This document shows positions 4,235 to 51,040 of a stretch of DNA of 64,000 bases, piece by piece. The DNA comes from Dichetophora obliterata (Eukaryota > Arthropoda > Insecta > Diptera > Sciomyzidae). Numbering within the stretch: the first letter of the stretch is position 1; every line of letters begins with the position of its first letter. A model generated the notes under the pieces. That model worked only from the letters and a program-made list of their open reading frames with translations. It did not search any database and was not told the origin of the DNA. The DNA lies in contig OY986437.1 in NCBI GenBank assembly GCA_963920525.1, forward strand, positions 28,212,863 through 28,276,862. The letters are read 5' to 3'. The translations under genes were made by a program, and so were the position numbers.

Positions 4235-4263
4235 CGTCACCTAAAATGCCCAAAGGCGTAACC
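4235..4263 (+). repeat. Left 29-bp TIR of element 1
   Basis: This starts CGTCACCTAAAATGCCC, ends GGCGTAACC, and is a perfect inverse of 13669-13697. AAAT lies immediately outside. Confidence 0.95.
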
Positions 4264-6090
4264 AAAGATTATATAGTATAAAGATGTGCCACGTAGAACA
4301 TTAAAAAGTAACAAATATTTTTCAGATCAATACGTAAACTTTTGTGAGCGCGATGAAAAAGCTTTCTTGAGAGAAAAGTTTCCAATCCTTGCATGCACAT
4401 TCTCTCTGCAATGCTCTTTCACTCTTCACTCCACAATGCTTCACAACATAGATCACCACTGCATGGTTTCTCATAGCTAGCGAGAGTCGTGAAATTTAAT
4501 GTTGTAATTGTTTTTTCCGTTGTTGTTGTTGTTGGAACCAAGCAGTTGTGATCTCTGCTTGACAGCAACAAATGTTTTTGTTTGCTTGCATTATTTTCAT
4601 GATGATTTCCTTATTTTGTGCGAAGCAGATTTTTCTTATTCACTGCTTGCAATTAATATTGACTATTTTTGATTGACTCAGCCAGAGCAGTAAAATCTGC
4701 TTATATATTCAGAATCTTAAGGAAAACTGAATAACGACATACAAATCCATCCAATGAATTCAAAATTGTTTATAAATAAAATTTTTAATTCACATTGAAT
4801 TTTAAAAAATTGATTAGATATTAATTTAAAATATTTTTTTTCGTTATTCAGAATAATTAATTATTTTTTATTCATATCAATTCTATTTACAAAGAATGCA
4901 ATTCAAAAAGAATTTAAAATTTTTCAATAATTAATTTTTTGTACATTATTTTTTTTTTGATTCATTGCCTATTCATGTGTTATTCATTATTAATTTTATA
5001 GTCATTATTAATTTTTTATTTATTATTATTTGGTTCCATACTCAAAAGTGAATAACAAGATTTTTTTTTCATTTTATTTATTATTCAAAAGTGAATGAAA
5101 AATTAGAAATGAATACGAAATTTATAAGGAATAAAAAATTAATAATGAATAAAAAATTAATAGCGAACATTTAATTCATAAAATAGTAGTGAATAACTAA
5201 ATTTTTTATTCATTGTATTTTTTATTTAAAAGTGAATAACAAATTAATAACAGTGGTAAACAATTTAAAAAAAGTTTGCGCGACAAAAACGATATTGCTA
5301 GTTCGATTGAGTATTTTTTCTAGATAATAAAAATTATTAAGACCAGGTTGGTTCGAATTTTTTTAGAAGAATTTTTCAATTTTTTTGAGTTTTGAAAAAT
5401 ACTACCCAGTTATGATCCTATAACTCCAAAAGTATTCATTTATTTTACAAGTTTTATAAATATTTACAAATGTGACATTTATACCTTTTATTTAATTTTT
5501 TATTTACATTTGTGAAAGAGTTTAAAATATACCATTTATTTAACATATCCCATTTTTAAACATTGTTAAAAAAATATTTCAACGAATATATTAGGTAAAA
5601 AGTATGATTGTAGTAGGTTGGATATTAACGTATTTCGGTTTTAGTAAAAATACTCAAAACTACCTGCATCAAAGTCGACGTGGTGAGTTCGTACTAAATA
5701 AAGTCTGCTGACTTTAAAAACCAAATTATCATATATTTAACTAAAGATTTTGTTTACAAACAATGTTCTTAGCGTTTTTAGCTAAATTTAAAAATCCCTA
5801 AACCGCAATTTTACATTATAATAGGATTTGCAACACTGCAAACTCTTTGAAATGAGTCATAGCAGAATTTTTTTACAACATTCATGATTTTAAATTTTTA
5901 TTTGTTTTCTTGATATAATCAGTTTTCAACACTACCTGGATTATTTTGAATTGCCATGGACATGAGTAAAATAACAGAAATAACGTAAACAAAGATACGT
6001 CAAAAATAAATCAAAACAAAACAACGAAATCTTCGCGCCGGTATAAATAACTAGCTGAAACACTGTGTGTTGCTGCTACGTCCCCGTTGC
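4264..6090. other. AT-rich left flank of element 1
   Basis: No gene is supported here. About 4740-5260 is a low-complexity tract built from degenerate 'GAATAAAAAATTAAT' and 'TTATTCATTATTAATTT' words on both strands, probably a decayed minisatellite. A (GTT)n run sits at about 4519-4535. The rest is AT-rich with no recognisable domain. Confidence 0.6.
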
Positions 6091-6094
6091 CAAA

Positions 6095-6385
6095 CGCCCA
6101 TAACATGCTATCAGTGAAACGGCACGAGTAAATTGTGGTCGAGTACCGAATTGCGAGGCTGTGCAGCGACCTATAACTCCAAAGCTATTCAATATCAAAA
6201 AATTTCAGTTGTGTGGGAGGGGTAACGCCCATAAAATTTTATCAGTGAAACGTGTAAATTGTAGTCGAATACCGAGTTTCGAGTCTATGCGACCAATAAC
6301 TCCAAAGCAATTTGATATCGCAAATTTGGGTGGTGTAGGAGGTGCCACGCCTACTTTCCCAACGCCCATTACATGTTATCAGGGA
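6095..6385 (+). repeat. Tandem duplication of a ~130-bp unit inside element 1
   Basis: Two and a part copies of a unit follow each other near 6095, 6227 and 6358. Each opens with AACGCCCATAACATG- or AACGCCCATAAAATT-like sequence, then ATCAGTGAAAC, GTCGAGTACCGA-like sequence and TAACTCCAAAGC. The unit is GC-richer than its surroundings. The overlapping 81-codon open frame at 6161-6406 follows the repeat and is not considered a gene. Confidence 0.7.
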
Positions 6386-6389
6386 AGCC

Positions 6390-8298
6390 TGATAAAAAAT
6401 CTTTGAAAATTCTTTAATTCTTTTCGAATTGCATTCGTTCTATAATACTCATACAATTTAACACAAAGCTTATATTAATATAACTTATTTTCTGGTTTGT
6501 TTGTTTAATTGACATTTGTACAAATCTAAATGACTTAACGGACTTCGCTCAATTTGAGTACACATATTGTGTGCATCCTAGATGAGATTGTAACATACTT
6601 AGTTTTGATCACGCTCATTCCACCCATTTCCACTTACGTAAATTTTGATATTGAAAATCTTTTTTTAAAAAATTTTTTTGCAAATTAAATTTAAAAAATT
6701 TCAGTAATTTTAATACCAAAAACATTCACATATCTTTAGAATTTCAGAAATTTTTGGTACAACGACTTTTTTATAAAACATCGTTCCCAAGAATGAGAAA
6801 AAACGACATGAAAATCAAAACTTTGACTTTCGATGCAAATATGTCCGCTATTTTAAATATATTTAATTCAAATTTTTTGATCAAAGTTTTAATAAAAGCA
6901 CTTTACAAAAATGGTTTCTACTGTAGCGTTAGGTCAGTGAATATATTCTTTAATTTTTTTTTTTCAAAAAACTGTCTAAAATATTGAATTTTTACTCAAA
7001 AAATTATTAAAAAAATGTCTTTGTTGTATAAATAAGAATTATAAGTATAAATAAGAATATAAATAAGAATTGCAAATTGCATATCTGAGTACTTTTCATA
7101 AAGTAAAGCATGTATTTGCAATAATATAATAAAAATATATAAAAGTAGTTAAATAAAAAAAATTTCCGCAAAAAAAAAACTTAAAAAATATTGCATGAAA
7201 AGTTAATGATGGCATATTTTAATTACAATATTGTTTTTAATAATTGTAAAAAAATAATATTTTTTAGAATTATATATAAGCTTAATGCCAATTAAGTTCA
7301 TGAAGCAACAGGTTGCAACAACAATAAGTTCTTTGCAGAACAAACCACCAAGCAGACTAGACAGCTGTTTTGTTGATAGCTACATCAACTCATTGCTTAC
7401 AACATTATTCGCTGCTAAGCTTCAACTAATCAACACACAAAATATACCTAGATTATGATATTATATTCTTTATGATATTATATTCTTGAAATTATATAAC
7501 AAAAAGATAAGAGATAATGCAGCAAATATAATAACTTTAAATAATATAATGTTCGTAGGGTAGCTAAGTAAAAAAATTGCCTACATTTTCTAAGTAAAAC
7601 CTAATGAAATTCTGCTACATTTTGTTGGCAGCTATATCGTCTATTCAGATGTTTCGTGCATCAAATCTATACTATCATTTCTATTGCTTTTCAATATTAT
7701 GCTCACATTTGCTCACATTGCCGCTTACTTATTCTCTCGCTCTCAAAAGCTTTAAATCGTTCGCTCGCTGACTCTCATAAAGCTTTTATGTGGATTTATG
7801 ATAAATCCACATTCAAATTTTACTGTGCCACTTGCTTGTATGGCGGTGGCACATCTTCCTATTATATTATCTGTGGCGTAACCCTCAAAAAGCAAAATTC
7901 GTTTTTTGATTGAATCTGGTGCACAAGGCTAAAATACATGGTCCTACAAAATTTTAGGCTCCTACCTTCAAAAACAACGATTTTATTTAAGAAATGGAAA
8001 AAGACGTAACATCATTTGAAAGTTTCCATAAAACACAAAAGACGTAACCCACATTATTTTAAATAGAGCAAACAGTATTGATTCATGCAGGCATTGATTT
8101 TTGTTCAAATTTTTTTGTTTTGTTTATCTTTCTTAATTTGTTTCATTGTTTTTCCGCCATTTTGATTTCCGCCATTTTGAGCGTGTGACAGTTGCTCTTT
8201 CCTAGATTAGTTTTCTTTCTGTTATTAATCAGTGAACATTGGCGATTTTGGCTATATTTGTGCAGATTAATTAAAAAAAGTGAATTGGAGTGTTAAAA
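6390..8298. other. Non-coding left arm and presumed promoter region of element 1
   Basis: This is AT-rich sequence without a gene. A short hairpin at about 7788-7812 has arms ATGTGGATTTA and TAAATCCACAT with a 3-base loop. TIR-like words recur: GGCGTAACCC near 7872, GACGTAAC near 8006, and GACGTAACCCACAT near 8041. A matching GACGTAACCCACAT lies near 13504 on the right side. The last 200 bp before the gene contain two CCGCCATTTTGA copies and an initiator-like ATCAGTGAAC near 8229; promoter function is an inference. Confidence 0.55.
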
Positions 8299-9143
8299 AT
8301 GATATCAAGCGATGAATATAACTTAAATGAAGCTATAAAGCTTCAAAATATAAAATATCTTGAAATATATATAAATGGAAATATATAAAGTATCTATAGT
8401 AAGCCCCCTAAAAGAAATAAAAGAGTTGAAAGCAAAACTAATCGCATGTATGGAAAAAAATATGAGAGACGGTCAAATGGAAATGATTATTCGGAAAGCA
8501 TGGCAAGAGAAATGAAACCGGGATGCACATCGTCATTTTGTGCAAGCAACTCGTCTCGACATTGTTCTTTTTTTCAAGAAATGGAGCGAATGGAAATATT
8601 CGACAGTTTCTGGCAAATGTCTTGGAACCAAAAGAAAATTTACGTAACCAGTCTTATTGAGACAATAAGCAGAAAACGAATATATGCAGTAGATTCTCGT
8701 CGCTCAGTTACAAAGATATATTTTTTAAAGACAAATACAATGCGTCTCCAAGTTTGCCAGAAAATGTTTCTGTCAACGCTAGGAATAACAGAAAAAATGG
8801 CAAGAAACTGGGTGAATTTAGCTGAGTTAAACGGTAGTCATATAGGTCCCGAAAAACACACCACTTTAAAAACTCAACAACGAAAAGTTACAAAGAATGG
8901 AAAACAGTATGAACAAAGATTGGAATTTTTAAATAAATGGTTAGAAGATGTGCCCAAATTGGAATCACACTATCGACGTCAGTACACTAACAGATTGTAT
9001 CTACAATCGGATTTTAAAAGCTATAGACACATGTATGACGTTTATTGTGATGAAAGCAAATTACATAAAGAAAATGGGATATTGCCTGTATCTTTTCCCA
9101 AATTTAGAAACATTTTAGAGCAAAATAAAGTATCTATATTTAA

Positions 9144-9613
9144 GGCCCAGTTATAATAGACGTAATGTAAAGTAACGTAATGTTGTCAACTGTCATCGTG
9201 ATGGGACGTAATGTAAGAAAACGTTGTAGCAATTATAATAGGCAGTAGCCAGGCAGTTGTTTGTCGTAAATAATTGCACGTTCCTGTACAAATACAATTA
9301 AATCTTCGTCATCCACAGCTGTGGATACATAAAACTATCACATGAATAACGAAAACTCAACAAAAAGCATAGTTCAACAACATAAAATAGCGCAATAATC
9401 GAATCTAACCTCAATGTTTAGTTGTTCTTTGAACAGACGTAATGTAAAGTAACGTAGAAATCGAAATCCAACGGATCTTTACGTCCCGTTACATTACGTT
9501 ACTTCTATAATAATCACTTGTATAAGAAAAGTATTGATTGAAACAGTAAGTGACAGAACACACTGCTGCAGTGGCATTTCACTACATTACGTTACGTCTA
9601 TTATAACTGGGCC
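9144..9613. mobile_element. 470-bp MITE with GGCCCAGTTATAATAGACG TIRs
   Basis: The two ends are inverted copies of GGCCCAGTTATAATAGACGT and extend into related internal repeats (ACGTAATGTAAAGTAACGTA). TTTAA flanks both sides (9139-9143 and 9614-9618). The same junction can be read as a 3-bp TTA duplication with an extra A in the TIR, which would fit PIF/Harbinger. Removing the MITE and one flank restores the element 1 gene frame. No coding capacity. Confidence 0.88.
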
Positions 9614-9904
9614 TTTAAGCCGAAGAATGACATGTGTGATATTTGCACATCGTATGAAGCTAAGAACTTATCAGAAGCTCAGTATGACCTCCACAGAGAG
9701 GACATAAAAAACATGAGAGAAGAGAAGTTGAATGATATAGAAAACGCAAAATCTGAACATATATTATTATTATGTATGGATATGCAAGCCGTAAAGCTGA
9801 TTCCACAATCAAATACAAATGCTTCGTACTACAAAATGAAGTTACAGGTACACAATTTTACCATATACGATATTAAAAGTCACGAATCTGACAACTTTGT
9901 CTGC

Positions 9905-11003
9905 ACTCAGGGAATTATTGAATTTCGTACACGGCTGCCATGAAAAAGATGAGGCTGTAGTAGCCATACTAGCGTTATAATATATGAAATGAAGTCACCT
10001 TAGCTGAAAGTTTATTGCAAGCACTTCATTAAAGCTCTCATAGCCCTAATTGAATCTGCAATAATCATAAAAAAAAAACAAAAATTATGTTGAGCGTCTA
10101 TTTAAAATAAGAGCTGTGGTTACAGTTGTGATACATTCAGTATTGTGCCTACTGCAACCAACTTTTAAATCTTGCGTGTAGAGAAACTCCAATACGGCTA
10201 TTGTAGCCTCAATACGGTTTTCACGCTTTTACTGATGATACTTAAACCACAAAAGACAAATTTCTCCATTTTAGTTTTGGCTTTGCAGCGTGCTTGTTGG
10301 CAAATATTAAAAAAAAATGTTTTTAAAGTTAATCGGTATTTTCTTTGATAATCGCTATAATTTGATAATATATATTATGCCTATTGTACTGAAAAAGGCA
10401 TGGACTATCTTACAATTCCATTGTCTAGGTCTATTTGTAAGCATGTTTCAGATGCATGCTAATGGTTTGTCGTTTATAACATGCGATTTTTAAAGTTAAA
10501 TAAAAAAAAATTTTTAAAAAAATAGTTTGTAAAGTTCTATGAACAATTAAAATTTTATATTTATTTGATCAAAAAAGTAATATTTTTCAAATGATTTGAA
10601 ATAAAAATTTAAAAAATATTTAAAAAAAACACTTTTATTAAACAAACGGCATTAAGAAATTGGTGATAACAATTTCGGCTGTCAAAACTGAATTCCTCTC
10701 ACCATCGCAAAAGGCGCTGTTATGACCTCGCCAACAATTCGGCTGTCAAAACCGAATTCCTCTCACCATAGCAAAAGGCGCTGTTATGACCTCTCCACAA
10801 TTCGGCTATCAAAACCGAATTCCTCTCACCATTAAAAGTTCTTACAACTTTCTGTGAGGTTGTCAAAACCGGCAGAGAATCTCTTAAACAGGAATTTAAC
10901 AGCCCTTATGGAAGTTGTCAGAGCCTCGCATATAAAATTTTTTGAGAACCGTAATATTACGGCTAGAAGAAGCGAAGTTTTGATAGCATCGCCAGTTCTG
11001 TGA
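9905..11003. mobile_element. Unclassified 1.1-kb insertion in the element 1 gene
   Basis: The coding sequence leaves off after the codon at 9902-9904 and resumes at 11004, judged by the element 2 protein. The inserted DNA has no coding frame. It contains a short tandem array at 10669-10835. Short CACTCA words occur at both ends in opposite orientation, but no convincing TIR or target duplication was found, so the exact ends and class are open. Confidence 0.55.
10669..10835 (+). repeat. 2.6 copies of a ~64-bp tandem repeat
   Basis: Units begin near 10669, 10733 and 10797. Each contains the imperfect palindrome TTCGGCTGTCAAAACCGAA, then TTCCTCTCACCAT and AAAAGGCGCTGTTATGACC. The copies differ at only a few bases, so the array is young relative to the surrounding sequence. 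Confidence 0.8.
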
Positions 11004-11445
11004 GTGTGGGACGAGTCCGAAGGAAATCTTGTTGCATCAACTTTTGCAACCTGCATTATAAAATATATAAGAAACGTAATTGATCAATTGCCGAGTATAA
11101 ACCATATTATTATATATTCTGATGGCTGTTACTGTCAGAATCACAATGAAGTACTATCTAATGCCTTACTTTCTATATGTGTCGAGACAAATATTACAGT
11201 GGAATACAAATATTTAGTCGTTGGCCATACACAAATGGAATGTGATTCGACACATTCAATTATTCAAAGAAAAATTAACAAAAAACAGATCAATTTACCA
11301 TCACAGCTTGTCGATTTAATGAAAACTTCACGAACAAAGCCAGCACCTCTTAAGGTTCATCACCTGGATCATAAATACTTCCTTGACTACGACTCTATTC
11401 CTAAGCGGTATTCTTCTATTCGACCAGGTAAGATAAATATTAATA

Positions 11446-12751
11446 AAGGGTGATCTTTTAAGAGCTTGATAATTTTTTTTTTTAAAAAAACGCATAAAAT
11501 TTGCAAAATCTCATCGGTTCTTTATTTGAAACGTTAGATTGGTCCATGACATTTACTTTTTGAAGATAATTTCATTTAAATGTTGACCGCGGCTGCGTCT
11601 TAGGTGGTCCATTCGGAAAGTCCAATTTTGGGCAACTTTTTCGAGCATTTCGGCCGGAATAGCCCGAATTTCTTCGGAAATGTTGTCTTCCAAAGCTGGA
11701 ATAGTTGCTGGCTTATTTCTGTAGACTTTAGACTTGACGTAGCCCCACAAAAAATAGTCTAAAGGCGTCAAATCGCATGATCTTGGTGGCCAACTTACCG
11801 GTCCATTTCTTGAGATTAATTGTTCTCCGAAGTTTTCCCTCAAAATGGCCATAGAATCGCGAGCTGTGTGGCATGTAGCGCCATCTTGTTGAAACCACAT
11901 GTCAACCAAGTTCAGTTCTTCCATTTTTGGCAACAAAAAGTTTGTTAGCATCGAACGATAGCGATCGCCATTCACCGTAACGTTGCGTCCAACAGCATCT
12001 TTGAAAAAATACGGTCCAATGATTCCACCAGCGTACAAACCACACCAAACAGTGCATTTTTCGGGATGCATGGCCAGTTCTTGAACGGCTTCTGGTTGCT
12101 CTTCACTCCAAATGCGGTAATTTTGCTTATTTACGTAGCCATTCAACCAGAAATGAGCCTCATCGCTGAACAAAATTTGTCGATAAAAAAGCGGATTTTC
12201 TGCCAACTTTTCTACTGTCCATTCACTGAAAATTCGACGTTGTGGCAGATCGTTCGGCTTCAGTTCTTGCACGAGCTGTATTTTATACGGTTTTACACCA
12301 AGATCTTTGCGTAAAACCTTCCATGTGGTCGAATAACACAAACCCAATTGCTGCGAACGGCGACGAATCGACATTTCACGGTCTTCAGCAACACTCTCAG
12401 AAACAGACGCAATATTCTCTTCTGTACGCACTGTACGCATTCGTGTGGTTGGTTTAATGTCCAATAAAGTAAACTGAGTGCGAAACTTGGTCACAATCGC
12501 ATTAATTGTTTGCTCACTTGGTCGATTATGTAGACCATAAATCGGACGTAAAGCGCGAAACACATTTCGAACCGAACACTGATTTTGGTAATAAAATTCA
12601 ATGATTTGCAAGCGTTGCTCGTTAGTAAGTCTATTCATGATGAAATGTCAAAGCATACTGAGCATCTTTCTCTTTGACACCATGTCTGAAATCCCACGTG
12701 ATCTGTCAAATACTAATGCATGAAAATCATAACCTCAAAAAAATCACCCTT
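11446..12751 (-). mobile_element. DD41D ('rosa'-type) Tc1/mariner element, intact
   Basis: A 1306-bp element is flanked by TA at 11444-11445 and 12752-12753. Its ends are short inverted repeats starting AAGGGTGAT. It carries one full-length antisense transposase. It sits inside the intron of the element 1 gene, so it did not break that gene's coding sequence. Confidence 0.93.
11553..12638 (-). CDS. DD41D mariner-family transposase, 361 aa
   Basis: This full-length transposase cuts and pastes its own element. The N-terminal part (residues about 1-120) is a bipartite helix-turn-helix DNA-binding region. The catalytic domain shows FSDEAHFWLNG (Asp 159), WFQQDGATCHTA (Asp 252) and SCDLTPLDYF (Asp 294). 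The last spacing is 41 residues, the signature of the DD41D group first described from a tephritid as rosa. No stop or frameshift is visible, and both TIRs are present, so the copy may be competent. It is antisense to the host transposon gene. Confidence 0.95.
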   Translation of the reverse strand: MNRLTNEQRLQIIEFYYQNQCSVRNVFRALRPIYGLHNRPSEQTINAIVTKFRTQFTLLDIKPTTRMRTVRTEENIASVSESVAEDREMSIRRRSQQLGLCYSTTWKVLRKDLGVKPYKIQLVQELKPNDLPQRRIFSEWTVEKLAENPLFYRQILFSDEAHFWLNGYVNKQNYRIWSEEQPEAVQELAMHPEKCTVWCGLYAGGIIGPYFFKDAVGRNVTVNGDRYRSMLTNFLLPKMEELNLVDMWFQQDGATCHTARDSMAILRENFGEQLISRNGPVSWPPRSCDLTPLDYFLWGYVKSKVYRNKPATIPALEDNISEEIRAIPAEMLEKVAQNWTFRMDHLRRSRGQHLNEIIFKK

Positions 12752-13080
12752 TATTACAACAAAGCTGAATTTTTTTGTAATATTGAAAAAATTTTGTTTT
12801 CGTTATACTTAGGCAAAAAAAAGGAGATCGAACAGTCAATAAGCTCCGAGCCTTGGGATACGATCCGTGTGGAATTATTTATTTTAAAATCAATATTAAA
12901 GACGACTACCAGATTCTTCCACAGCGAATTGCGCAAAAATACGAAGTAGTGGATCCTCCTGAAATGTACTCCCAAAGAATAAAAATTTCAAAAAAGAAAT
13001 ATCAACACCTACAAGACCTAAAACACTTACTTCCAAGAGATTGTCATTATTTTTATGACCACAATCCTTATGAGAATTAA

Positions 13081-13668
13081 AAAAATATAATTAAAATGTT
13101 ATAATATGTTACTTCACTTCTACCCTACCTTACTACTTGTATTAGCATTTTTTTTCGTCAATGAATTTTTTTTATTTTGTTTTATTCCACCTTATCTTTT
13201 GAATACTTTAAGCCATTTTTCAGCGAATTTAATAATAAACTACAATAAATATTTTAAAAATATGAACCATTCAATTTAACAGATATCCTAATGTTCCGCC
13301 TTTAGATTGTAGAAAAACAGTATCCGTAATTCAGAAAACCAATGTTTTTTTTTTATAAGTATATCGCCGTCGTTTAAGCAAGCTGTTAAAAATTCATCGT
13401 TTGAAACATAAATATTTTTCATATTAAAACATATTATTTCAACTACAAACTCACGAAACTGTGGGTTACACCTTTAGGCATTTCAGAGAAAAACAATAAC
13501 AAAAGACGTAACCCACATAACTTCCGAAATTCTGAAAAAAATATATTTTTTTACAGAAATAAGTTTGCCGTCTATCTTAAGACAAGATGTGAAGATATCG
13601 CGATTTAAAATTAAACAGTTTTCATTTTATAACGTTTTTTGCTTCTCCTGTAAAATTATGATAATGAG
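13081..13668. other. Right non-coding flank of element 1 with TIR-like repeats
   Basis: No gene. It contains an imperfect copy of the right TIR near 13462-13484 and a GACGTAACCCACAT word near 13504 that matches the left flank near 8041. These spaced copies look like transposase-binding repeats, an inference from position. Confidence 0.6.
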
Positions 13669-13697
13669 GGTTACGCCTTTGGGCATTTTAGGTGACG
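13669..13697 (-). repeat. Right 29-bp TIR of element 1
   Basis: This is the perfect inverse of 4235-4263, followed by AAAT at 13698-13701. An imperfect extra copy in the same orientation (GGGTTACACCTTTAGGCATTT) lies about 200 bp inside, near 13462. Confidence 0.95.
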
Positions 13698-13701
13698 AAA
13701 T

Positions 13702-14558
13702 ACTATTGTTTATCATCAGCTATATGCAAACATAAGAAAGCAACACAGCAATTGGAAGGCCTTCTACACAGACGGGACTAAAAAAAAACATTGCACAGCA
13801 TATAGCGTCGTCGATGATAGCAACGAGGTTATACGCATGATTGTACTCCCAAACCATTCCTAAATTTTCACTGCTGAAGCCGAAGGTATTCTATATGCAA
13901 CACGATATGCAAAAAAGTCGAACTCAAACTACATAATCTTCACTGATTCACTTTCTACCCTTAAAGCCGTAACAAACTGCAACTACAAAAATGATACAGT
14001 TTCAGCAATAAGAGACGTAGTCATAAATAACAACAAAATTAAACTTTGCTGGATCCCAAGCCACATAGGCATAAGTGGAAATACCGCTGCCGACCATTTC
14101 GCTGACCTTGCTACAAGATCACCATTATGTTCACAACGCACACTCAATGTAATGGATATAAAATGAGCCATAAACAACTCATGCTCCGAAACAAACCTCC
14201 AAAACTGGAACACTTACGAACACCACTATAAGCTCTTTAACAGAGACTACATCACACCACACTTCCCAATTACACCCACGAGAAAACAAACAGTAAACTA
14301 CATCCGTTTCCGCCTCGGGCACACCAGACTCACACACCAACATATCTTCTCTAGAGGTTTAACCCTGATCTGTCGATTCTGCAGTATGGAAGAATTAAAC
14401 TTAACGCATATCCTTGAACCTTGTCCAGCAATTGTAGAGAAATTGAGACAAAATAGTTTTAACCACAATATTGTTAACTTACTTACCAACGTAACTGAAG
14501 GAAATATTATTATGTTCAATAAATTTTTAAATATTCTAGGTATATTTTATGAAATTTA
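13702..14558 (+). pseudogene. I-clade LINE, RNase H and zinc-knuckle 3' part (continues 3455-4234)
   Basis: Removing element 1 and one AAAT copy joins this segment to the codon ending at 4234 without a frame change. The reading gives an RNase H domain with the four acidic positions visible: YTDGT, TAEAEG, FTDS and a final AADHFAD. A C-terminal region follows with a C-x2-C-x8-H-x4-C knuckle (CRFC...H...C). Two in-frame stops, before IFTAEAE and before AINNSC, show the LINE was already decayed or has decayed since. The frame ends at a stop near 14558, and the following bases look like its 3' UTR. Confidence 0.88.
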
Positions 14559-23469: not shown

Positions 23470-23692
23470 GGCCCCTATTATGAATTACAACTCAACTAAG
23501 TTCACTATTTTCAACTAATTTTTTTTTCGTATAACTAATTACATACATTTTAGTTGAACCATGTAGTTTGACAATTCTTAAAAGGTTATGTCAAACTACA
23601 TGGTTCGACTTAAATATAAGTAATTAGTTATACGAAAAAAAAATTAGTTGAAAACAGTCAACTTAGTTGAGTTGTAATTCATAATAGGGGCC
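23470..23692. mobile_element. 223-bp near-perfect foldback MITE
   Basis: Arms of about 100 bp beginning GGCCCCTATTATGAATTACA are inverted and separated by a loop near 23575-23585. TAC is duplicated at 23467-23469 and 23693-23695. The 3-bp duplication and GGCCC start again suggest PIF/Harbinger-type mobilisation. The arm identity implies recent insertion or strong hairpin constraint. Confidence 0.88.
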
Positions 23693-36120: not shown

Positions 36121-36123
36121 TAA

Positions 36124-38089: not shown

Positions 38090-38092
38090 TTA

Positions 38093-38672: not shown

Positions 38673-38675
38673 TTA

Positions 38676-39828: not shown

Positions 39829-40880
39829 CTGAATGTGCGTGAAGGAAAAGAGTAGTTTTTAATGAGATGTATTTTGAAAATCATCATAATGAATTTTCAG
39901 AATGTTTATTATTTAATAGTTTTGACATAATATGATTTCGTTCCTAATTAAAAAAAACTACTTCTCTATTTAGTTAGAAATGCATGACTTGAAATGAATT
40001 TAAGAATTAGTACATTCAAAAAGTAGGAAAGAAGTCAAGAAAAACTAAATGGAACAATTAATTTAAGTAAAAAATATAATAATTGTCAGTTATTCGAGCC
40101 AAAATGTGAGTTAAGTTTGAGTTTTTATTAAAAATTAATTAATTTTTTAGTTTATGGCTAAATAAATATGTGTCTTTGATGAATAGAATTTTCTAATTAT
40201 GTTTTTTTTTCTGTTAATTTTGATCGCTATCTTCTCGCCAAATTAAGGAAAATTTGAGAAACTAAATTTTAGAAAAGAAGTATTTTTCAGTTTTATTTAT
40301 ATTACTTTTTTTAAGACACATTTTATGTTACAAAATGATGCAATTTCGTCATAGATATTCTAAAAAATGTGAATATATTTCTTGTTCTATTGTTTGGCAT
40401 TGTAAAGTTTGGTGCGTCAAAAATTTTGTCTGATTTTTGTCAAATCTGTTCTGACAAAAAAGGAAAACATTTTATCATTTATTTATATTAAAACATTAAA
40501 TTTTAACACAAATTTATTTATCAGTTGAGGGTATGTTATTTAAAATTCTAGTCCGTATTTTGATATGACAACGGCACGTGCACCTAACAGTTTTTTCAAA
40601 AAAGTTGAAAGCGGAAAATGTCCCGCCGTTGCATGCTATACAAGAGCTACGATACAAGTTGATTCTTTGACTTTGTGATAAAAAAAAAAAATTACGACGT
40701 CATCAGAACGCAGAAGGTGACTTTTATGCAACAAAAATGAAAAATTGTTGCATGAAAAAAATTACTCACTGAGTGTAATTGTTAAGACAAAAATTGTCAC
40801 ACTCCAGTAAAGGCTTTCTTCCTCACTAAAATGTGCAAAATAACTTCAAGTCGCTGCGTAGAGAGCCGCTGCTCACCATT
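39829..40880. other. Non-coding interval
   Basis: AT-rich, with no recognised gene, TIR or tandem repeat. Confidence 0.4.
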
Positions 40881-40899
40881 TATAATTGTGTTATGAAAG

Positions 40900-41960
40900 C
40901 ACAAACAATTCAGAAAAGATCAATTGAAATTTAGAAATCAGAATTCTGAAATTTGAGATGGAATTCTGAATTAATGTTGATCTATTTTTTAATTTTAATA
41001 ATTTCAATTGATTTAAACTAATCTTCTCTAAATTTGAATATATCTTTAATGAATTTTTAATGAAATTTCTGAACTTCAATTGATCTATTCCGAATTCATA
41101 ATTAGTTTTTCTGAACTCCCAATGATTTTTACCTTATTTCAAATGGAAGCAGAATATTACTTAATCTATTTTGATAATCAATTGTTGATCTTATCTGAAT
41201 TCAAATTTTTCTTTTCTGAACATTTATTGATCTATTCTGACTCTTAAATGAAATTTCTGAATTAAGATTGCTTTTTTTCTGAATATCAATTTATCTTTTC
41301 TGAATTCCAATTGATCTGTTCTGAATTTCAATATATTTTTTTTTAATTTCTATTGACTTTTTTTAATTTCATTCGATCTTTTCTGAACTTTAATTGATCT
41401 ATTTCGATTTTTAAAGATTTTTGCTAAATTAAAATGATTTTTTCTTAATTTCAAATTTAATTCTGAATTTTCATTGATCTAGATCAATTTAATTCTCTTC
41501 AGACTAGATCTATAGATTTATTTAATTTGATATATTATAAATTTCATTTGATCTGTTCTGAGTTTCAGTTGATCCTTTCTAAATTTCAAATAATTTTTCC
41601 AAATTTCAATTGATCGTGTCTAAATTTTTGTTGATCTGTTCTGAAATTTAAATGTAATTCTGTTTTCAAAATGCAAATGTTTTTTTCTGAATTTCAATTG
41701 GTCGTGTCTAAATTTTGATTAATCTTTTCTTAAACTCAAATGTTATTCTGAATTTCCATTCACCTAGTATCAAAAGTTGAATTTCATTGACCTAGTTTTG
41801 AAATTCAAAATTTAAATAGGAAATTTAAATTAAATGGAATTTTAAAATTTCAATAGACCTATACACAATTGTAAATTATCTATTCTAAATTTTAAATGGA
41901 ATTTCAAATTTCCATTGATCTTTTCTTAATTTGAAGTATAAATCTAAAAGACATTTTTAA
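40900..41960 (+). repeat. Degenerate minisatellite, unit like TCTGAATTTCAATTGATCTT
   Basis: Roughly 1.1 kb is built from variants of a 22-32-base unit containing CTGAATTTCAATTGATC, with many single-base changes and variable spacers. The same unit occurs at 54985-55185. The small minus frame at 40891-41079 is an artefact of the repeat. Confidence 0.8.
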
Positions 41961-42049
41961 CCTTGTCTGTCGATCAATAGAATTTTAGGGGCCACAAATA
42001 AAAGATATTTTGCGCGTCAAGCTTAAAGCGAATACTCAAACCCTGTAGT

Positions 42050-42360
42050 AATCGTCAAATTGTACACCGATTGCAACCGTGTACTGAAAGCTTTTGGTGA
42101 TTATCGCAGGCGTACAAAGAAGGCGATTCATCTGAGAGACGCTGGGCTTGAAGTAGACAGCAATGTTTTTATGCACGAAAGCCTTGCAGTGGAGACAAGA
42201 AAATTTTATCAAGCAGTGATCTCTTACAAGCGGCAATCAAATGATTTTCAACGCTTTCACACTTTGTGGTTCTGTCTTTATTAGATTGTATAAAGGCGCA
42301 GATATTGTTAAAATCAACAATGAAGATGAACTCCAGAATATCGTATGCGATTCAGTTGCT
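42050..42360 (+). pseudogene. Possible LINE ORF1-type fragment
   Basis: An open frame (42060-42284) reads RTKKAIHLRDAGLEVDS, FMHESLAVETRKFYQA and YKRQ. The next frame continues with RLYKGADIVKINNEDELQ. The spacing resembles nucleic-acid-chaperone ORF1 proteins of insect LINEs, but the match is from memory and weak. It abuts the inverted LOA fragment, with no defined boundary. Confidence 0.35.
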
Positions 42361-42771
42361 CATGGAAATAATTAGTATGGCTGTCCCTCTCTTTAAGCCC
42401 GCCAGATTACCTTCGGGATGTCTGCATGTCCAAAGCCAAGAATAAGGGTGATGGTTGGATACTGGGTCGAGAATTCATGGGGAGCGGCCTATGAATTGAA
42501 CTCAAAAAGAGTTCATTCTTGAGGCAGGCCTCTTGAATGATTCATCTGATTTCTGTAAAACAAAAGGTCCACCTTGAACCTTCGTTGTTGTTGCCAAATC
42601 TTGGAGAAGGCATGATTCTGGTATTGAGTTATCATAACATATAGAATTGTAATGCTTTCGATAGACGATCAATCCAATATAACTTGAAGTATGGGGGCAG
42701 TCATCCATCAAGACGAGGAGACCTTTGTCTCCTGCGGACCTGCGGACCTTTGTTTTAGAATTAGGGTTCTA

Positions 42772-44121
42772 AAGGGTGGCTGATGAAAGTCGCTACCAAA
42801 AAAAAAAAATGGAATAACTTTTTTCTATTTAATGAATCTGTTTTTCCTTTTTTTTATTTTGCAGACTGATTTTTAGATTTAACAAAAATGGATAACTGGG
42901 ACATCGAAACAAGAATTTGGATTGTCCGCCGCTATCACGCACTGGAGTCCGTAGTTTCGGTTCAAAGAGAGTATAAGCGCACGTTTGGCGGCAATCCTCC
43001 GAACAGATGGACCATAATGAGACTTGTTAACAATTTTGCCGAGCATGGGATAGTTAACAGAAGACCTTACCATCGAAACAATTCAGTTCGGACGGAGGAA
43101 ACAATCGCTGCTGTAGCTGCTGCCATACAAAACAATCCAAGAGTTTCGACAAGAAGCTTATCTGCCCGAATGGGTGTAAGCAGACAGTCATTGCAGTCAA
43201 TTGTGCACAAAGATTTGGACTTATTCCTATATAAAATTCAAATGGCCAACAAACTGAACGCAGCAGACTTCCTAATTCGGTTGGAATTTTGCCAGAAGAT
43301 GCTTGGTGGAAATGGTGGAAGAGGACGGAAACATGTTGAACTGTCCTGACGACCCATTTTGATTATGTTGACGAATGGGTCTGACGAGGCCCATTTTGAT
43401 TTAAACGGCAACATAAACAAACAAATTGTCGAATATGGAGTGCTTCCAACCCACAGATGCTCCAGAAGACGGAATTGCATCCAAATCTTGTCACAGTGTG
43501 GTGTGCAGTTTCATCACGCTACATTGTCGGGCCCTACTTCTTCGAAGAAAACGGTCACACCATTACGGTTACTGGAGACCGTTACTTCCGCATGTTGAGA
43601 GAGTTTTTTTATCCATAATTACGCCAAATGAGAATTTATTTTTAAACTCTGTGTGGTTTCAGCAAGATGGTGCAACTCCTCACATAGCCCGGCCTGTTAT
43701 GACAGAACTGCGACAAAAATTTCCCAATAAGCTGATATCCAGAATCTCCACATTCCGTTGGCCCCCCAGGTCGCCTGACCTTACTGCATCTGACTTTTTC
43801 TTGTGGGGTTATTGCAAGCAGGAAGTCTACAAAGCAAAACCAACAAATTTGAATGAACTAAAGCAATCCATTCGAGAAACAATTGCGGCTATTCCTGTCT
43901 CAACTCTCTAAGCAGTAATGAACAACTTTTTGGTAAGATGCCGTACATGCATTAACGAGCGGGGGGGGGGGTATTTAAATTGCATAATTTTTAAAACTAA
44001 TTAAGCTTTATTTAATAAATCTGTATGAGCTTTAACACGAATAAAAGAAAAATGAGTTCCATACACTGAAAAAAAAAGTTACTTGAGTTTCTTAATGCAG
44101 CAATATTCATCAGCCACACTG
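42772..44121 (+). mobile_element. Dead DD41D mariner-family element
   Basis: TIRs AAGGGTGGCTGATGAA (left) and, inverted, CAGTGTGGCTGATGAA (right) are flanked by TA at 42770-42771 and 44122-44123. A frame-shifted transposase lies between them. A G-run at about 43962-43972 sits in the 3' part. Confidence 0.88.
42888..43911 (+). pseudogene. DD41D transposase pseudogene
   Basis: The N-terminal 153 codons (42888-43349) hold the helix-turn-helix region up to FCQKML. The frame then shifts for GSDEAHFDLNGNINKQ (first catalytic Asp), and shifts again for VWFQQDGATPHIA and SPDLTASDFFLWG. The second-to-third Asp spacing is 41 residues. At least two frameshifts are present and the C-terminus ends early at IPVSTL. 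It is clearly inactive and differs considerably from the intact copy at 11553-12638, so it is a separate subfamily. Confidence 0.88.
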
Positions 44122-44668
44122 TATGTAAGAGACATAGTAATCCCTGACCTAGTATAGTGCCAATTATTTACTATGGCACGCTTCCCAGTTTTCCGAAAGG
44201 AAATTTTAAGAATCCTAAATTAAGCAAACGAAGTTGCGTAAATAGGATTGTGATTCTCTTGCGATATTAAATTATGGGGAAACCAATAGTTATTTTAACC
44301 TAGGCATGAACAATTCTTCGGGGTTTCATTCGTACTGGTTGTGGTTTGAGACCAAAAAGATCGGTGCGAGTTACACCTTGTTTCAAACAGTAAATGTTAG
44401 GAAGGTAAGCAACTACCGGATCAATATACTGTTACCTTTGGAATTTGAGGACAGGTGACGGTAAAACCTTAACAATCTGAGTAGTCTCCATCAATTGGTG
44501 GGGAAATCTGGTTACATAAGTAACAGTACCATAGGTCTAGTGGTATGGTATCGCCTCCTAGTTTTCATAGCAAAGATCTGCCAAATCCTTGAACATGCAA
44601 CCGAAGTTGCGTGCCAAAAAAATAATGGGTTAAATGGGTATTTATACTCGATATGTCATATGAATCAT

Positions 44669-44950
44669 GGGCGACCGTAGCCTAGTGGGTAGAGTGTGTG
44701 GCTCCTAAGTTAAAGAACCGCGGTAGCCCGGGTTCAATTCCAGCACAGACAGAAAGTTTTTTCTATTGATTTAATTTTTCTGTTCAGTCGTCACCTCTCC
44801 GCAGACAATGGCAAACCTCAGAGAGTAAAAATGGCCATGTAAAGCTTCTTGAGAGAATAAGCCGTTCGGAGTCGGCATAAAACACGTAGGTCCAGTTCTC
44901 GGTCGTTTGTGATCAAACATTTAATTACACGCACAACACAATTGATCAAT
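44669..44950 (+). mobile_element. tRNA-derived SINE
   Basis: The head GGGCGACCGTAGCCTAGTGG contains an A box and GGGTTCAATTCCAGC a B box. It is followed by a body with AAGCCGTTCGGAGTCGGC and AAAACACGTAGGTCC, words I associate with abundant SINEs of higher flies. The right limit is approximate and no target duplication was resolved. It interrupts the inverted LOA fragment. Confidence 0.75.
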
Positions 44951-45263
44951 AGAAGCTAGGTCAAAGTCCTTCCAAGGTTATGACCCATAGTTTGACCCAT
45001 GGTTATTGTTTAAATGACCTAAATAGTCATGTACAATTTTAGTGGCTGAAGTTGTCACGGTCTTGTACATAGCTCAAAAGAACTTTTAATGTTGGTTTGT
45101 TGCTGTGAAATTAGGGGAACTCTTCTGGTGGATCCTTTGAATTCCGAAGGGGCGTTGGCCGACGCTAAATATTGGTCCCATGCGATGGAGCACCGTAGAA
45201 TTAAGCCTACATGGCAAGGGGTCTTCGTTAAACACAAAGTGGATGTCTCTCCCTCTCTTTGTA

Positions 45264-46528
45264 AAGGGTGGTTAAATTTTAAGGACCAATGTTGAATGTG
45301 AACCACACCTACACGTCAAGTTTTTTTCTGCATTTCATTTAACATTTCTCAATTTCAGACTAATTCAACTTGAATCATGGAAAGATACACAAGCGAGCAA
45401 ACGCGTAAAAGTTATTCAGGCTTATTATGAAAATGGACGTTCAGATCAAAATGCATATCGTGCACTTCGTGATTTTTTTTGGCCATTTTAATCATCCAAA
45501 TGTGCGTACAATCGGAAAAATCGTGCTAAAATTTGAACAAACCGGCTCTGTAGGAGATGTGAAAACACCAGTGCATGCTCGTTCAGCTCGTACTGCAGAA
45601 AATATTGCTGCTCTTCGCGATAGTGTGGCTGAAGAGCCGTCCACCTCAAGTCGCCGTCGTTGATGAACATTATGCATAAAGACTTGCATTTACACGCTTA
45701 CAAGGTGCAATTGACTCAAGAACTAAAGCCTCTTGACTATTTCAAGCGTCGTCAATGGCCAGAATGGTGGCAAGAAATGGCAACAGTGGATGATCAATTT
45801 TCGAAGAAAATCATCTACAGTGATAAGGCACATTTTCCCCTCAGTGGATTCGTCAATAAGCAGAATTACCGTATTTGGCCGAATGATAATCCAAGAGTGA
45901 TTGTCGAATAACCAATACCCCCACAAAGAGTGCGGTTTACGGGCTGGCGGCATCATCGGGCTGTATTTTTTCTAAAATGAGGCCGGTCAGGCAGTTACTG
46001 TGAATGGTGATCGCTATCGTGAAATGATAACGAACTTTTTATGGCCCGAATTGAAAGATATGGATGTGGACGATATGTGGTTTCAACAGGAAGGTGCCAC
46101 TTGCCACACAGCTAACGAAACAATGGCTCTTTTGCGCGACAAATTCAATGGCCGTGTTATCTCACGTGGTGGCAATGTCAATTGGCCGCCAAGATCATGT
46201 GATTTGACACCGTCGGACTTCTTTCTTTGGGGTTATTTCAAAGAAAAGGTGTACGTCGATAAGCCAGCAACAATTTAAGAGCTAAAGGATGAGATAATTC
46301 GGCATATTAACGGCATACAACCTCATGTGTGCCTCAGCGTCATCGAAAATTTGGACCATCGGATGGAGGTGTGTCGCCGAGGTCGCGGCGGCTATTTGGC
46401 CGATATTTTGTTCTATACATAATTGAACCATACCAATATTATCATAATAAAAAGATATGACAATAATTTTCTAAAAAATTTGTGTTTTATTCAAAATCAA
46501 CATCGGCCCTTAACATTTAACCACCCTG
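45264..46528 (+). mobile_element. Dead 'rosa'-type DD41D element
   Basis: TIRs AAGGGTGGTTAAATTTTAAG and, inverted, CAGGGTGGTTAAATGTTAAG are flanked by TA at 45262-45263 and 46529-46530. The element is 1265 bp and carries a transposase pseudogene. Confidence 0.9.
45377..46420 (+). pseudogene. DD41D transposase pseudogene with Asp-to-Glu catalytic change
   Basis: Protein pieces run from MERYTSEQTRK through RTAENIAALRDSV, LHAYKVQLTQELKPLDYF, YSDKAHFPLSGFVNKQNYRIW (the Glu after the first Asp is Lys), MWFQQEGATCHTA (second catalytic Asp replaced by Glu), and CDLTPSDFFLWG. They end DILFYT. Several stops and shifts occur (near 45415-45425, 45661, 45909, 45975 and 46276). It is closest in wording to the intact rosa-type copy in this window. 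Confidence 0.88.
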
Positions 46529-46530
46529 TA

Positions 46531-47437
46531 TTATTTGTAAATATTTGTACTCTTAATTTTCTTATCTTCAATACTTATACCTTACTTTTCTATATGTCTG
46601 TGAATCAACGTAGCTGAAAACTACAAATAAAATTCCTAGAATGGACGCAGTTATTAGTAATATTTACACACAAATGGTCTTAAATGGTAATATTTACACA
46701 CGGTCTCAAGAAGTTTGATCATATATCATCCTTTTCTTATAAAATATTTGGTCGAAGTTTTCCCAACTACCTTGATGCAAGAACGTGATTTTTTTTTTGC
46801 ATTGTCCTACAATTCTGTCCATCGAGCAGAGGCATGATCGTCGTTAAATTTTAAAAATTCTAGTAGATTGTTTTTCGCTAGTTCAATAAGATTTTGGAAT
46901 TCACTGTCTAATAATTTAAAAAGTGTCTCAAATATTAAGTACTTTAAGCATTTAATTTTCGAATACTTGTTTTAAATCTCTTCTATTCGCTCTTCTGAAT
47001 TTCTGGTCTCTGCTAAACTTTATTTAACATCTCTTTTTATTTCTATTTTTTAGTAATATAGTGTTTAAGTTTAATTTTACAGTTGTCATATCCTTATAAT
47101 TTTCTTTCAATTTGCAATGTAATTCTTAATTATTTTCAATTTAATTTATATAACTAGTAAGCCCGTGTGGGGTTTGGTGTAAACGCTAAAATCAAGCATA
47201 CCTAGATTTCATTTTAAGCAATCGAATAGACTTTTAACTGATCAAAATTTAAATGAAATTAATTTTGGCCTATTTGCAATAAACGCGGTATTGAACGCAC
47301 AACGACGATATAATTTTAGCATATTTAATTTCCAAATTCAAATTTATTTTAAATGTACAGGAGTAAGAATATTTCTTGATTTCCAGTTGAAAAATGCTTG
47401 AACAAAAATGTTCCCCTATCAATCAATTCATAGTTTT
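46531..47437. other. AT-rich non-coding interval
   Basis: No gene or defined repeat. It includes AGTAAGCCCGTGTGGGG near 47158, which looks like the edge of an unidentified element. Confidence 0.4.
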
Positions 47438-47967
47438 AGCTGAGTGATTCCATTGCTTTTTGACAAAAAAAAATTAAATTCTAAACCTGACCCATTCCGA
47501 TTTGGTTTAAACTTTGTATACACGTAGTGTTGGCTACAATTTAGAAAATAAATTTGTAATTTTAATTTTTTTCCAGTGGTTACTGAGTTACGGGTACTCA
47601 AGAATTGAAAAATTCGGTTTATTTTCTTTAGGATTTATTTTCATTTGATTTCATTTCACTTCGGTTAAGTTTGAGATAGATCAACGATTTTAGATTCATA
47701 TTAAAGATATTTTCAAAAAGCTTATTTTGTATAATAAAACTTTAAAATTTTTCAAATATTTACGTTATTTTTTTGCATAAGAGTTTAACAAAATAATATT
47801 TTTGTGAAGTTATTGGGGGTTGGAATTAGTTTTAAAGGTTTTCTAAGAGATGGCGTAACTATCAATAGATCGCATCGGGCACACCTGTGACTATATTCAT
47901 TTCAAAGCACATTGTGTAAGCTTCATTTTTCAGTATGTGTCATTCCACTGAAGTGTAAACAACATAT

Positions 47968-50900
47968 CGCTCATTTCGTGCAAGACTGTCACAACTCAAA
48001 ATCTGAGATTTTTGAGTTGAGTATACAGGAATATCCGTTATAAGAATCTCTGTAATATATTCCAAAGTCAGAAAGATTTTCGCTCAAATAACGGTTTTAT
48101 GGAGACTTTTGTCGTTTTTGCTCTTTGCACTCAGGCAGTTTTATTAGTTACAACAACGTCACATTTTAGTCTGTGCGTGATCTTCTTTGAATTCGTTCAA
48201 CATTTTTTTAGTAAAAACGCTGTATTTTATCTTATAACGATTTAATTTATAAAGTGTGAGTTAAAATTCATATGGTTTTAACAACAAAAGTGGCCTATTT
48301 CGAAATGTGACGGTTTTGATGTTTTGTGTTTGATTTTTTGATTACATTTTTTATAAATATAAATGTAATAAGACAAGATGTTATGTTGTTGTTGCTAATT
48401 TTTTTTTGTTTTATAAATCATTTCGACTTAAACCGTTATTGTCAGCAAACTTAACTCTTTAAATTTCAACCACAACTTGGAATAATTGAAGTTATCACAT
48501 TCTTGCTGTTAATATATAGTTAACAATTTTAAAGAAACTTGTCACATTTCAAATTGTGCCGTTATTCCTGATAATTTTTATGAATACATAGGAGAACTTT
48601 TCATTTTTCTTTAAAGGCTCTTCTTATATTAAAAACTCATGGAACACCAACAACAAGCTTCTTGTTCACTTTCTTTTACCTCGAGTGATTCTACTTGTTG
48701 CTATGAGTTCGATTCAGACGACTCTCAGAAAGATTTAACATATAAACCAGCCGACAACACTGCAATAGAAAGTGATACCATAAGCAACAACTCCGTTGTA
48801 GACGAAGTTTATGAATCTGTTGTAGTAGGTGATGTCGCTATCGCTGCGAATTCAAGTAGTACGACTAAGAAAGGTAAGAAGCGACACAACAATCCAGAAA
48901 AATGGCGTCGCAATATAAAAAAAAAATTGAGAAATTCAGGCAAAGAATATGAAATGTGGACGAAGGAGAAGAGAATTCAACGATGTAGAAGTATTAAGCC
49001 TCCTTGTACTGAGAAATGTAGACTACAGTGCTCTAAGAATTTTAGTGATAATGATCGCTTAAACATTTTTAATTTATATTGGTCTCTAGGAAATATTGAG
49101 AAGCAAAGGCAATTTTTGTTAAACTGCATCGCTGAAAACGAGCCTCGATATCGATATATTAGACAAGGGGGAACGCGACCACCAAGACAAAAAAACATGA
49201 AATACTTTTTTAAGAGAAATGAAAACATAACACAAGTTTGCAAAAAATTTCTAATGAGTACACTCGACATAAACAATAGACCAATTCGAACAGCATTAGA
49301 GAAGAGCAAAAAAAAATACTCAAAATTTGTTAGAAGAAGACAAACGAGGCAGACATAGCAAGCAACCAAGAGTGAATCCTGGAATTAGAGAGGGAATTAA
49401 AACATTCATAGACTCCATACCTAAAATTGAGAGCCATTATACACGAGCGCATACAACAAAACTGTATATTGATGGTAGCAAAACTGTTGCAGAACTTCAT
49501 AGAGATTATATAATTCGCTGCCGAGAACAAAGCATTGATTATGGAAATTACCCATTATTTTATCGCATATTCAATACGGAATTTAACGTTTCATTTTTTG
49601 TACCCAAAAAAGATCAATGCGAGCTCTGTGTTGCTTATGAGAACTTAGAAGGGGATAAGAAAGGAGAGCTGCAAGAGAAATATGACCAACACATTTTGGA
49701 AAAAGAGATTTCAAGAATTGAGAAAAAGTCTGACAAAGAGAATAATTCCCCAGATACGTTGGTAGCTGTTTATGATATGCAAGCAGTTATGCAGCTCCCA
49801 AAAGGGGATGTTTCAGTTTTTTATTACAAGTCAAAATTAAACGTTTTGAATTTTACAATTTTTAACATGAAAGACAACACCTGCGAGTGTTATGTGTGGG
49901 ATGAAAGTAATGCAAATAGAGGTGGAAATGAATTGGGAACATGCATCCTTCGCTATATGAGGGAAAAGTCTCTTCAAAACAACACGAAACACTTTATTTT
50001 TTATTCAGATAACTGCGCAGGCCAACAAAAAAATAAATTTATGATTTCAGTTTATTTTTATGCAGTACAGTTTTTAAATATTGAAAGTATAACTCATAAA
50101 TACTTAACTAAGGGGCATACACAAAACGAGGGAGACTCCGTGCATTCTCTTATTGAAAGGAACGTGAAGCGTCAGCTTAGATGTGGTCCAATTTATACTC
50201 CTGAAACTTTTATTTCCATTATAAGAAGTGCAAAAAAATGTGGCAAACCATACAAAGTGACAGAATTATGCTTCGATGATGTTTACGATATGAAACAGTT
50301 ACATGCTGATATAGGCCCTCTGAATATGGCTAATGCAAAACTATCGGATATTAAAATCGTAAAAGTAAGTAAGGAGTCACCAACTTCCTTATTTTACAAG
50401 ACATCATACTCTCATGAACGATTTGAAGAAGCAAAAGTCTTAAGGCGAGTTTCTAAAAAAGACATTCATTTTATACAAGCTTTCTCGTCCAAGCCTGGTA
50501 TAACCGAGAGAAAGAAAATTGATCTCTTAGATTTAATAAATAAGGGTATCATACCTAAATACTACAAAACTTTTTATGATTCGTTATAAAAATTAATTTT
50601 AATTTATGTTATTTAAAAACAAAAATCCATTATACATGCGAAATTATATCTTATTTAATTATCTTTTATGTTAATAAGATTACATATTTTTTTGTCAAAT
50701 GAATAAATGAAATGTTAATTGAAAATTCCAATTGAATTATTTATTTTTTTTTTAGCAATACCGTCACAACACTGCATATAACATTTTATTCTTTGCATTT
50801 TTGCAGCAATAACGTCATAAAACTAACAGTGTGAAAAAAAATATTTTTTAAAATACTAATAGTTATCATAAAAGCTATTTAACTTCAGAATAATGTTTAT

Positions 50901-51040
50901 AAAATATTATTCTACCAGAATGTGCAAAAATATAAATGAAACATCTACATTTATGGAAGAAATATGATTTTCAAATGTTTAAAGTGGCCTCCTGAAAATT
51001 CGCAAATTTTAAGTTGTGACAGTCTTGCACGAAATGAGCG
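47968..51040 (+). mobile_element. Element 2: 3.07-kb DNA transposon, relative of element 1
   Basis: Perfect 29-bp TIRs (47968-47996 and 51012-51040) begin CGCTCATTTCGTGCAAG. They are flanked by ATAT at 47964-47967 and 51041-51044. Like element 1, the TIR starts with CG, is 29 bp long and has a 4-bp AT-only duplication; the TIR sequences themselves differ. One gene (48639-50589) fills most of it. Subterminal words such as ACGTCACATTT (48155), ATGTGACGGTTT (48305), TGCCGTTATTCC (48557), ACCGTCACAAC (50760) and ACGTCATAAAAC (50811) recur on both sides. Confidence 0.93.
48639..50589 (+). pseudogene. Transposase-like gene of element 2, one frameshift from complete
   Basis: Two overlapping frames (48639-49358, 239 codons; 49327-50589, 420 codons) join into one protein of about 645 residues if one A is dropped from the A9 run at 49308-49316. 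N-terminal features are a Ser/Asp-rich leader, a basic stretch, and C-x3-C-x3-C at residues 123-131 of the first frame (PCTEKCRLQC). The second frame has CELC (98-101), VYDMQAV (Asp 150), YVWDES (189-194), YSDNCAGQQKN (Asp 228) and HTQNEGDSVHS (Asp 270). The order and spacing of the three Asp blocks suggest an RNase-H-like transposase core, an inference. The family is common in arthropods and may be what Pfam calls DUF7869, a name recalled and not checked. Being the only gene between two TIRs supports a transposase role. Confidence 0.85.

Follow-up and report, generated by a model that had tools for sequence, protein, structure and literature searches.

The Sola superfamily of DNA transposons, with its Sola2 group, is said to have been described by Bao et al. 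in 2009. Passages of PMC10741241 characterize Sola elements by DDD transposases, 4-bp target site duplications (TSDs), terminal inverted repeats (TIRs) of at least 11 bp and lengths mostly of 2-9 kb, and report them from bacteria and metazoans. In social amoebae, Sola2 elements produce duplications of the form AWWT, including ATAT, AAAT and ATTT, and Fanzor1 passenger genes occur in some of these elements, as stated in part of PMC3627910. We analyzed a stretch of 64,000 nucleotides (the window) from the fly Dichetophora obliterata (assembly GCA_963920525.1, contig OY986437.1, positions 28,212,863 to 28,276,862). It holds two elements, element 1 and element 2, each with a gene whose product matches the Pfam family DUF7869. 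Both are very probably class II cut-and-paste transposons with the DUF7869 protein as their DDD transposase, Sola2 being the most likely group.

A scan of the window for perfect inverted repeats of at least 20 bp, with arms 100-20,000 bp apart, yielded 23 pairs, the two elements among them. A script run on the raw window confirmed the ends read in the initial annotation: perfect 29-bp TIRs that start with CG, CGTCACCTAAAATGCCCAAAGGCGTAACC in element 1 and CGCTCATTTCGTGCAAGACTGTCACAACT in element 2, different in sequence, and flanked by 4-bp duplications, AAAT and ATAT, respectively. The length of 29 bp, perfect in both, does not define the family, however. The TIR of element 2 runs on imperfectly to 49 bp (90% match). 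When the element nested at 4264-7874 is set aside, the left end of element 1 keeps matching the right one, so that its own TIR is 33 bp, perfect; genomic copies, described below, have TIRs of about 27-50 bp. Element 2 comprises the following features:

47968-51040, + strand: element 2, with a perfect 29-bp TIR and an ATAT TSD
47964-47967: left TSD, ATAT
51041-51044: right TSD, ATAT
48633-49358, + strand: N-terminal transposase frame, annotated from 48639, with a C-rich motif and an IF..YW block
49300-50589, + strand: catalytic transposase frame, with CxxC and Asp codons at 49774-49776, 50008-50010 and 50134-50136

Element 1, whose sequence is broken in four places, comprises:

4235-13697, gene on the + strand: element 1 with its nested insertions, a perfect 29-bp TIR, an AAAT TSD and profile-matched gene pieces
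4231-4234: left TSD, AAAT
13698-13701: right TSD, AAAT
8389-9153, + strand: N-terminal transposase frame, annotated to 9156 (A1 profile, 2.1e-25)
9554-9940, + strand: frame (A1 profile, 1.3e-22) with a transposase piece at about 9619-9904
11004-11450, + strand: frame, annotated to 11453, matching Pfam DUF7869 (6.9e-11) and the A1 profile (1.8e-29)

The A1 profile was built from relatives of element 2, and the three pieces of element 1 that it matches stand in the correct order. CxxC and the first Asp (9779-9781) lie in the piece at about 9619-9904; the second and third Asp (11121-11123 and 11244-11246) lie in the frame at 11004-11450. A C-terminal frame at 12787-13077 gave no match to the profile and was assigned to the gene by position alone. 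The initial annotation gave each element a single gene. In element 2 this gene is spread over two overlapping frames, and in element 1 it is interrupted.

The genes of both elements match DUF7869 (PF25273) above the cut-off (1.4e-10 and 6.9e-11). In Pfam this family carries only the label of a domain of unknown function, whereas here it is tied to TIRs, TSDs and a model of an RNase H fold. The catalytic region is predicted to have the strand and helix order of an RNase H core, with a predicted local distance difference test (pLDDT) score of 90.1, and the top structural matches of the model are integrase and mariner cores. In the numbering of the element 2 catalytic frame, D158 (motif DMQAV) is placed on strand 1, D236 (YSDNC) immediately after strand 4, and D278 (GDSVHS) where a later helix makes its first turn. 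These are the residues that had been proposed as the triad of a DDD transposase, and the alignment of bacterial and insect sequences, like the predicted core, agrees with that proposal. The alignment has 14 rows, eight from bacteria. D236 and D278 do not vary across it, and the only departure from D158 is an N in P0039 (a protein named transmembrane/TPR protein in UniRef); the row of element 1 does not reach D158.

Two other acidic residues were considered for the third position. In 95 insect-type sequences E285 is invariant and E276 nearly so, while the bacterial rows have K or R at the former position and S or A at the latter. As the eight aligned bacterial rows keep the Asp alone, E276 and E285 were ruled out in favor of D278. 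Judged from this alignment, the triad is D158, D236 and D278. Upstream of the core, H18, H45, C106 and C109 are invariant or nearly so.

When the host genome (1.31 Gb) was searched, 99 matches were obtained, a lower bound because scoring covered 98 of the 1949 candidates from the first look. We took 38 loci, 30 of them returned with flanks and eight chosen from the other 69 matches. They represent 36 distinct loci (two pairs were the same element), element 2 of the window included. TIRs were found at both ends in 26 of the 36, at one end in six and at neither in four within the flanking sequence available. The 26 two-ended elements are 2.8-3.8 kb long with TIRs of about 27-50 bp; together with element 1 they make up a set of 27, in which we distinguish nine TIR subfamilies (our own grouping) plus element 1. 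CG is the terminus at 52 of their 54 ends.

The 4-bp flanks are identical in 23 of these 27 elements, and none of the 27 has identical flanks over 5 bp. Both refuting conditions named in the initial annotation, a predicted structure lacking an RNase H core and genomic copies mostly not bounded by TIRs with 4-bp duplications, were thus checked, and neither applied. The four non-identical pairs are CTAT/ATAT (L020), ATAT/ATAC (L032), ATTA/ATTT (L046) and ACAT/AAAT (L055). AWWT occupies 40 of the 54 flanks, with ATAT foremost; ACAT, ATGT, AACT, ATAC and ATAA deviate. Hence the duplications are AT-only in the two window elements, as initially stated, but not in the family, where ACAT, ATGT, AACT and ATAC occur. 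Because ATAT is palindromic and favored, the 12 elements that are not ATAT/ATAT were tallied apart. Eight of them have identical flanks (AAAT twice, and ATTT, ATAA, ACAT, ATGT, AACT and ATAC), compared with eight of 132 cross-element pairings. Reverse-complementary flanks, expected if the TIR were longer, were found in none of the 11 of these elements that were tested. Beyond the 4 bp, G is the commonest next base outward (31/52), followed by T (29/52), and the target resembles ACATATGT.

The family of element 2 has nine two-ended copies including that of the window, with 98.5-100% full-length identity to the window copy; the eight others lie at 98.5-99.2%. In five of these copies a frame of 544-561 residues, counted from a Met, remains open across the catalytic region. 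Near-identity and the frames kept in five copies suggest that this family has moved recently.

To look for unoccupied relatives of the insertion sites, the flanks of the 27 elements were joined with one copy of the TSD and compared with the sequences available. Diverged relatives were found for six sites, and they fit a single 4-bp copy, at one site a base short. The site of L021 has a relative near 7680, within the nested element of the window (84% alike); opposite GATATGTA it reads GATA-GTA, with one base missing. The site of L044 matches a sequence in L055 at 45 of 52 bases, ungapped, with ACGT in place of ACAT. L047 matches the L025 site at three places (71-87% alike) with a single ATAT; the relative of the L026 site in L042 (73%) likewise has one ATAT. 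The sites of L046 and L055 are matched by local repeats of their own loci (70-79%) with one 4-mer; their junctions are ungapped, save for a gap of 4 bases next to the junction in one L055 row out of five. Since these relatives are old, they support a 4-bp duplication and do not prove it. L021, a copy of the element 2 family, is itself inserted into a diverged genomic relative of the nested element at 4264-7874.

Relatives were also detected in bacteria. A scan of prokaryotes, covering 84,980 species by a single genome apiece, gave 10 bacterial loci (L001-L010), from Thiomargarita, Deltaproteobacteria and other bacteria. The five bacterial proteins scanned all match DUF7869 above the cut-off (4.8e-14 to 2.7e-22). 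In seven of the 10 loci the gene is bracketed by inverted repeats of 36-61 bp; the right arm of L010 lies 1.4 kb past the gene, and the gene of L002 starts at a contig edge, with its left end beyond view. These elements mostly have GGGG ends and are mostly about 2.05-2.1 kb long. We placed the boundaries at the first G; the two flanks then agree over 4 bp in three of the seven (ATTT, AAAT and AATT), and AWWT fits 13 of 14 flanks, compared with 3.8% of positions in the same contigs. The unequal pairs may reflect recombination or assembly joins of repeats. A search with the L005 protein gave 736 matches among 7997 candidates scored. Most of the 120 listed lie on contigs about 2-3 kb long, a length that a repeated element of 2.1 kb might explain, and their names are mostly hypothetical protein, with chaperonin once. 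That name is borne in NCBI by P0138, a DUF7869 protein of Candidatus Magnetoglobus, and is apparently wrong. The bacterial group is sparse in the samples: in a search of 98 genomes related to one carrier genome, G001, five had it, G001 included (two of the five through pieces of 42-43 residues), and among 395 genomes of its phylum one did, G001 itself.

On the insect side, a search with the element 2 catalytic frame against 5.8 billion proteins gave 563 matches. Among the best 120 of them most are nameless, and the named organisms are insects and one isopod. The initial annotation had noted that such proteins are abundant and usually labeled uncharacterized; the names of the 240 relatives listed for the insect and bacterial queries are almost all uncharacterized, hypothetical, unnamed or DUF7869. 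Four proteins scanned against NCBIfam gave no significant match (one at E 0.19), PHROGs gave one insignificant match (E 0.31), and neither PADLOC nor a sequence search of the PDB gave any. DUF7869 was absent from 14 control genomes, no relative was confirmed in the viral contigs scanned, and tblastn with the L005 protein found none in plasmids. A full-text search found no paper for DUF7869, five peptide motifs or two PANTHER ids within the collection searched.

Several superfamilies were discarded by their duplications, as described in parts of the sources cited. Tc1/mariner elements such as Mos1 and SETMAR duplicate TA (2 bp), and ISAzo13/Zator elements 3 bp (PMC10045372), compared with 4 bp here; Pfam also reported no mariner match for the DUF7869 frames. 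One of five bacterial relatives has a weak Pfam match to ISAzo13, below threshold (E 0.018; 14.5 bits, cut-off 26.9). The 4-bp duplication of piggyBac and Kolobok is specific for TTAA (PMC9587614), a sequence found at none of the 54 flanks. Merlin, with its 8-bp duplication, was ruled out as no element has identical flanks even over 5 bp.

By published descriptions, the family probably belongs to the Sola2 group of the Sola superfamily. The elements are taken as probable Sola2 because their 4-bp AWWT duplications, DDD residues and bacterial and metazoan range fit what is stated of Sola in the portions of PMC10741241 and PMC3627910 already mentioned. The individual traits are found here as well: a 4-bp TSD (23/27), the size of the elements, the length of their TIRs, the AWWT of Sola2 (40/54) and three conserved Asp, one N excepted, at positions that fit the predicted RNase H model. 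There are also differences, as amoeba Sola2 elements have TIRs of 12-13 or 21 bp, against about 27-50 bp here, and a transposase of 888 aa, against about 650-700 aa, according to the part of PMC3627910 that treats them. A hint at Sola in the initial annotation is thus strengthened by the AWWT duplications without being proven.

The same data admit other explanations. DUF7869 transposases might form a superfamily apart from Sola that shares 4-bp AT-rich duplications by coincidence, which we consider rather unlikely. The lack of a described function in Pfam and of a significant NCBIfam match for four proteins would agree with it, as would the lack of a DUF7869 paper in the collection searched and a likeness to Sola that rests on descriptions, not sequences. 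The links between prokaryotic and eukaryotic transposons listed in the main text of PMC10045372 (2023), as far as that text goes, do not include Sola either. Against this, duplication length, the mostly AWWT target, the Asp triad, size and presence in bacteria all fit Sola or Sola2 as published in part. The criterion for a superfamily, as given in part of PMC4455052, is that transposases converge in PSI-BLAST. A broader proposal, possible if somewhat doubtful, is that DUF7869 marks one DDD superfamily across bacterial insertion sequences (IS) and animal transposons, two sides not joined before, with a 4-bp AWWT-type target throughout. The bacterial side would be an unnamed IS group and the animal side the families with CG ends. 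These families would be distinct from Sola, or else the bacterial group would represent Sola2 in prokaryotes.

A kinship with Ginger or other integrase-derived transposons is very unlikely, even if retroviral integrase cores are among the best structural matches and H18, H45, C106 and C109 may resemble an HHCC arrangement. One protein among the 120 relatives listed, P0115, additionally bears the integrase core PF00665, perhaps through a fused gene prediction. The third residue, however, is Asp rather than the Glu of retroviral integrases and Ginger, and the termini are CG, while those of the Ginger/integrase group are TG. For the element 2 frames, Pfam reported no rve match up to E 1, in a search whose filters drop weak matches; the predicted fold is integrase-like. 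It is highly improbable that the DUF7869 protein is a passenger and that another transposase moves the elements. Sola2 elements are known to carry Fanzor1 passengers (part of PMC3627910), but the DUF7869 frames are the longest in element 2 (by length alone, the others of at least 60 aa reach at most 135 aa). Moreover, the nine TIR subfamilies, element 1 and the bacterial elements all carry the gene with the same type of flank, and the predicted fold and the Asp triad are transposase-like. As for inverted repeats placed by chance around a host gene, ATAT begins at about 1% of window positions and short flank matches do occur by chance; perfect 29-bp TIRs, nine near-identical copies at separate sites and matching flanks in 23 of 27 elements make this practically negligible.

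If the DUF7869 protein is the transposase, its Cys-rich and helical N-terminal domains would bind the inverted ends that start with CG, and a metal-bound Asp-Asp-Asp site in the RNase H core (D158, D236 and D278) would cut and join DNA. The ends would be joined to target strands 4 bp apart, with a preference for ATAT in a context like ACATATGT, and repair of the joined target would leave the 4-bp duplication. We infer this chemistry, the binding of the ends, and cutting and pasting rather than copying. The sequences directly show the TIRs, the 4-bp duplication, a preferred target, near-identical copies and three Asp residues conserved across the aligned bacterial and insect proteins, while the fold is a prediction.

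The elements themselves are probably of a known kind; the useful results are the assignment of DUF7869, which gains a function, and the bacterial link, which points to an unnamed IS-like group. With a concrete function for DUF7869, annotation pipelines could mask such genes as transposases. The bacterial relatives, which share the Asp triad and have flanks of the AWWT type, provide a testable link between prokaryotes and eukaryotes. Candidates for a transposition assay in insects are those genomic copies that combine a long open frame with perfect ends.

Other transposon sequences lie in or around the two elements:

4264-7874: element resembling a Mutator-like element (MULE), nested in element 1, with the 9-bp TSD GGCGTAACC at 4255-4263 and 7875-7883
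9144-9613: insertion in the element 1 gene resembling a miniature inverted-repeat transposable element (MITE), 470 bp, with GGCCCAGTTATAATAGACG ends and TTTAA at both sides
11553-12647, - strand: DUF4817 helix-turn-helix (HTH) transposase-like frame inserted in element 1, unrelated
about 47813-52175 (approximate ends), + strand: mariner copy that took in element 2 (Transposase_1, 1e-27)

The element at 4264-7874 sits directly after the left TIR of element 1. Its terminal 29 bp are inverted with 24 of 29 positions matching, and it is called MULE-like because of the length of its TSD; no part of it was recognized as a transposase. Another interruption of the element 1 gene lies between about 9904 and 11003. 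We infer that the DUF4817 frame is mariner-like. The stretch that holds it is edged by GTAAG and TTAG and is perhaps an intron.

The mariner arms around element 2 (47812-47842 and 52147-52177) match at 28 of 31 positions. Once element 2 and one ATAT are removed, this mariner measures about 1285 bp, the usual mariner length being about 1.3 kb. Its frame, at 50940-52100, is stop-free over 386 residues, and element 2 is inserted upstream of the likely ATG.

Elsewhere in the window, a 223-bp element at 23470-23692 has perfect 33-bp inverted ends (GGCCCC...) with TAC at both sides. Perfect inverted repeat arms of 65 bp, about 1.7 kb apart, are found at 60644-62323, and arms of 154 bp, also perfect, at 53363-54263, overlapping an inverted pair at 52843-53512.

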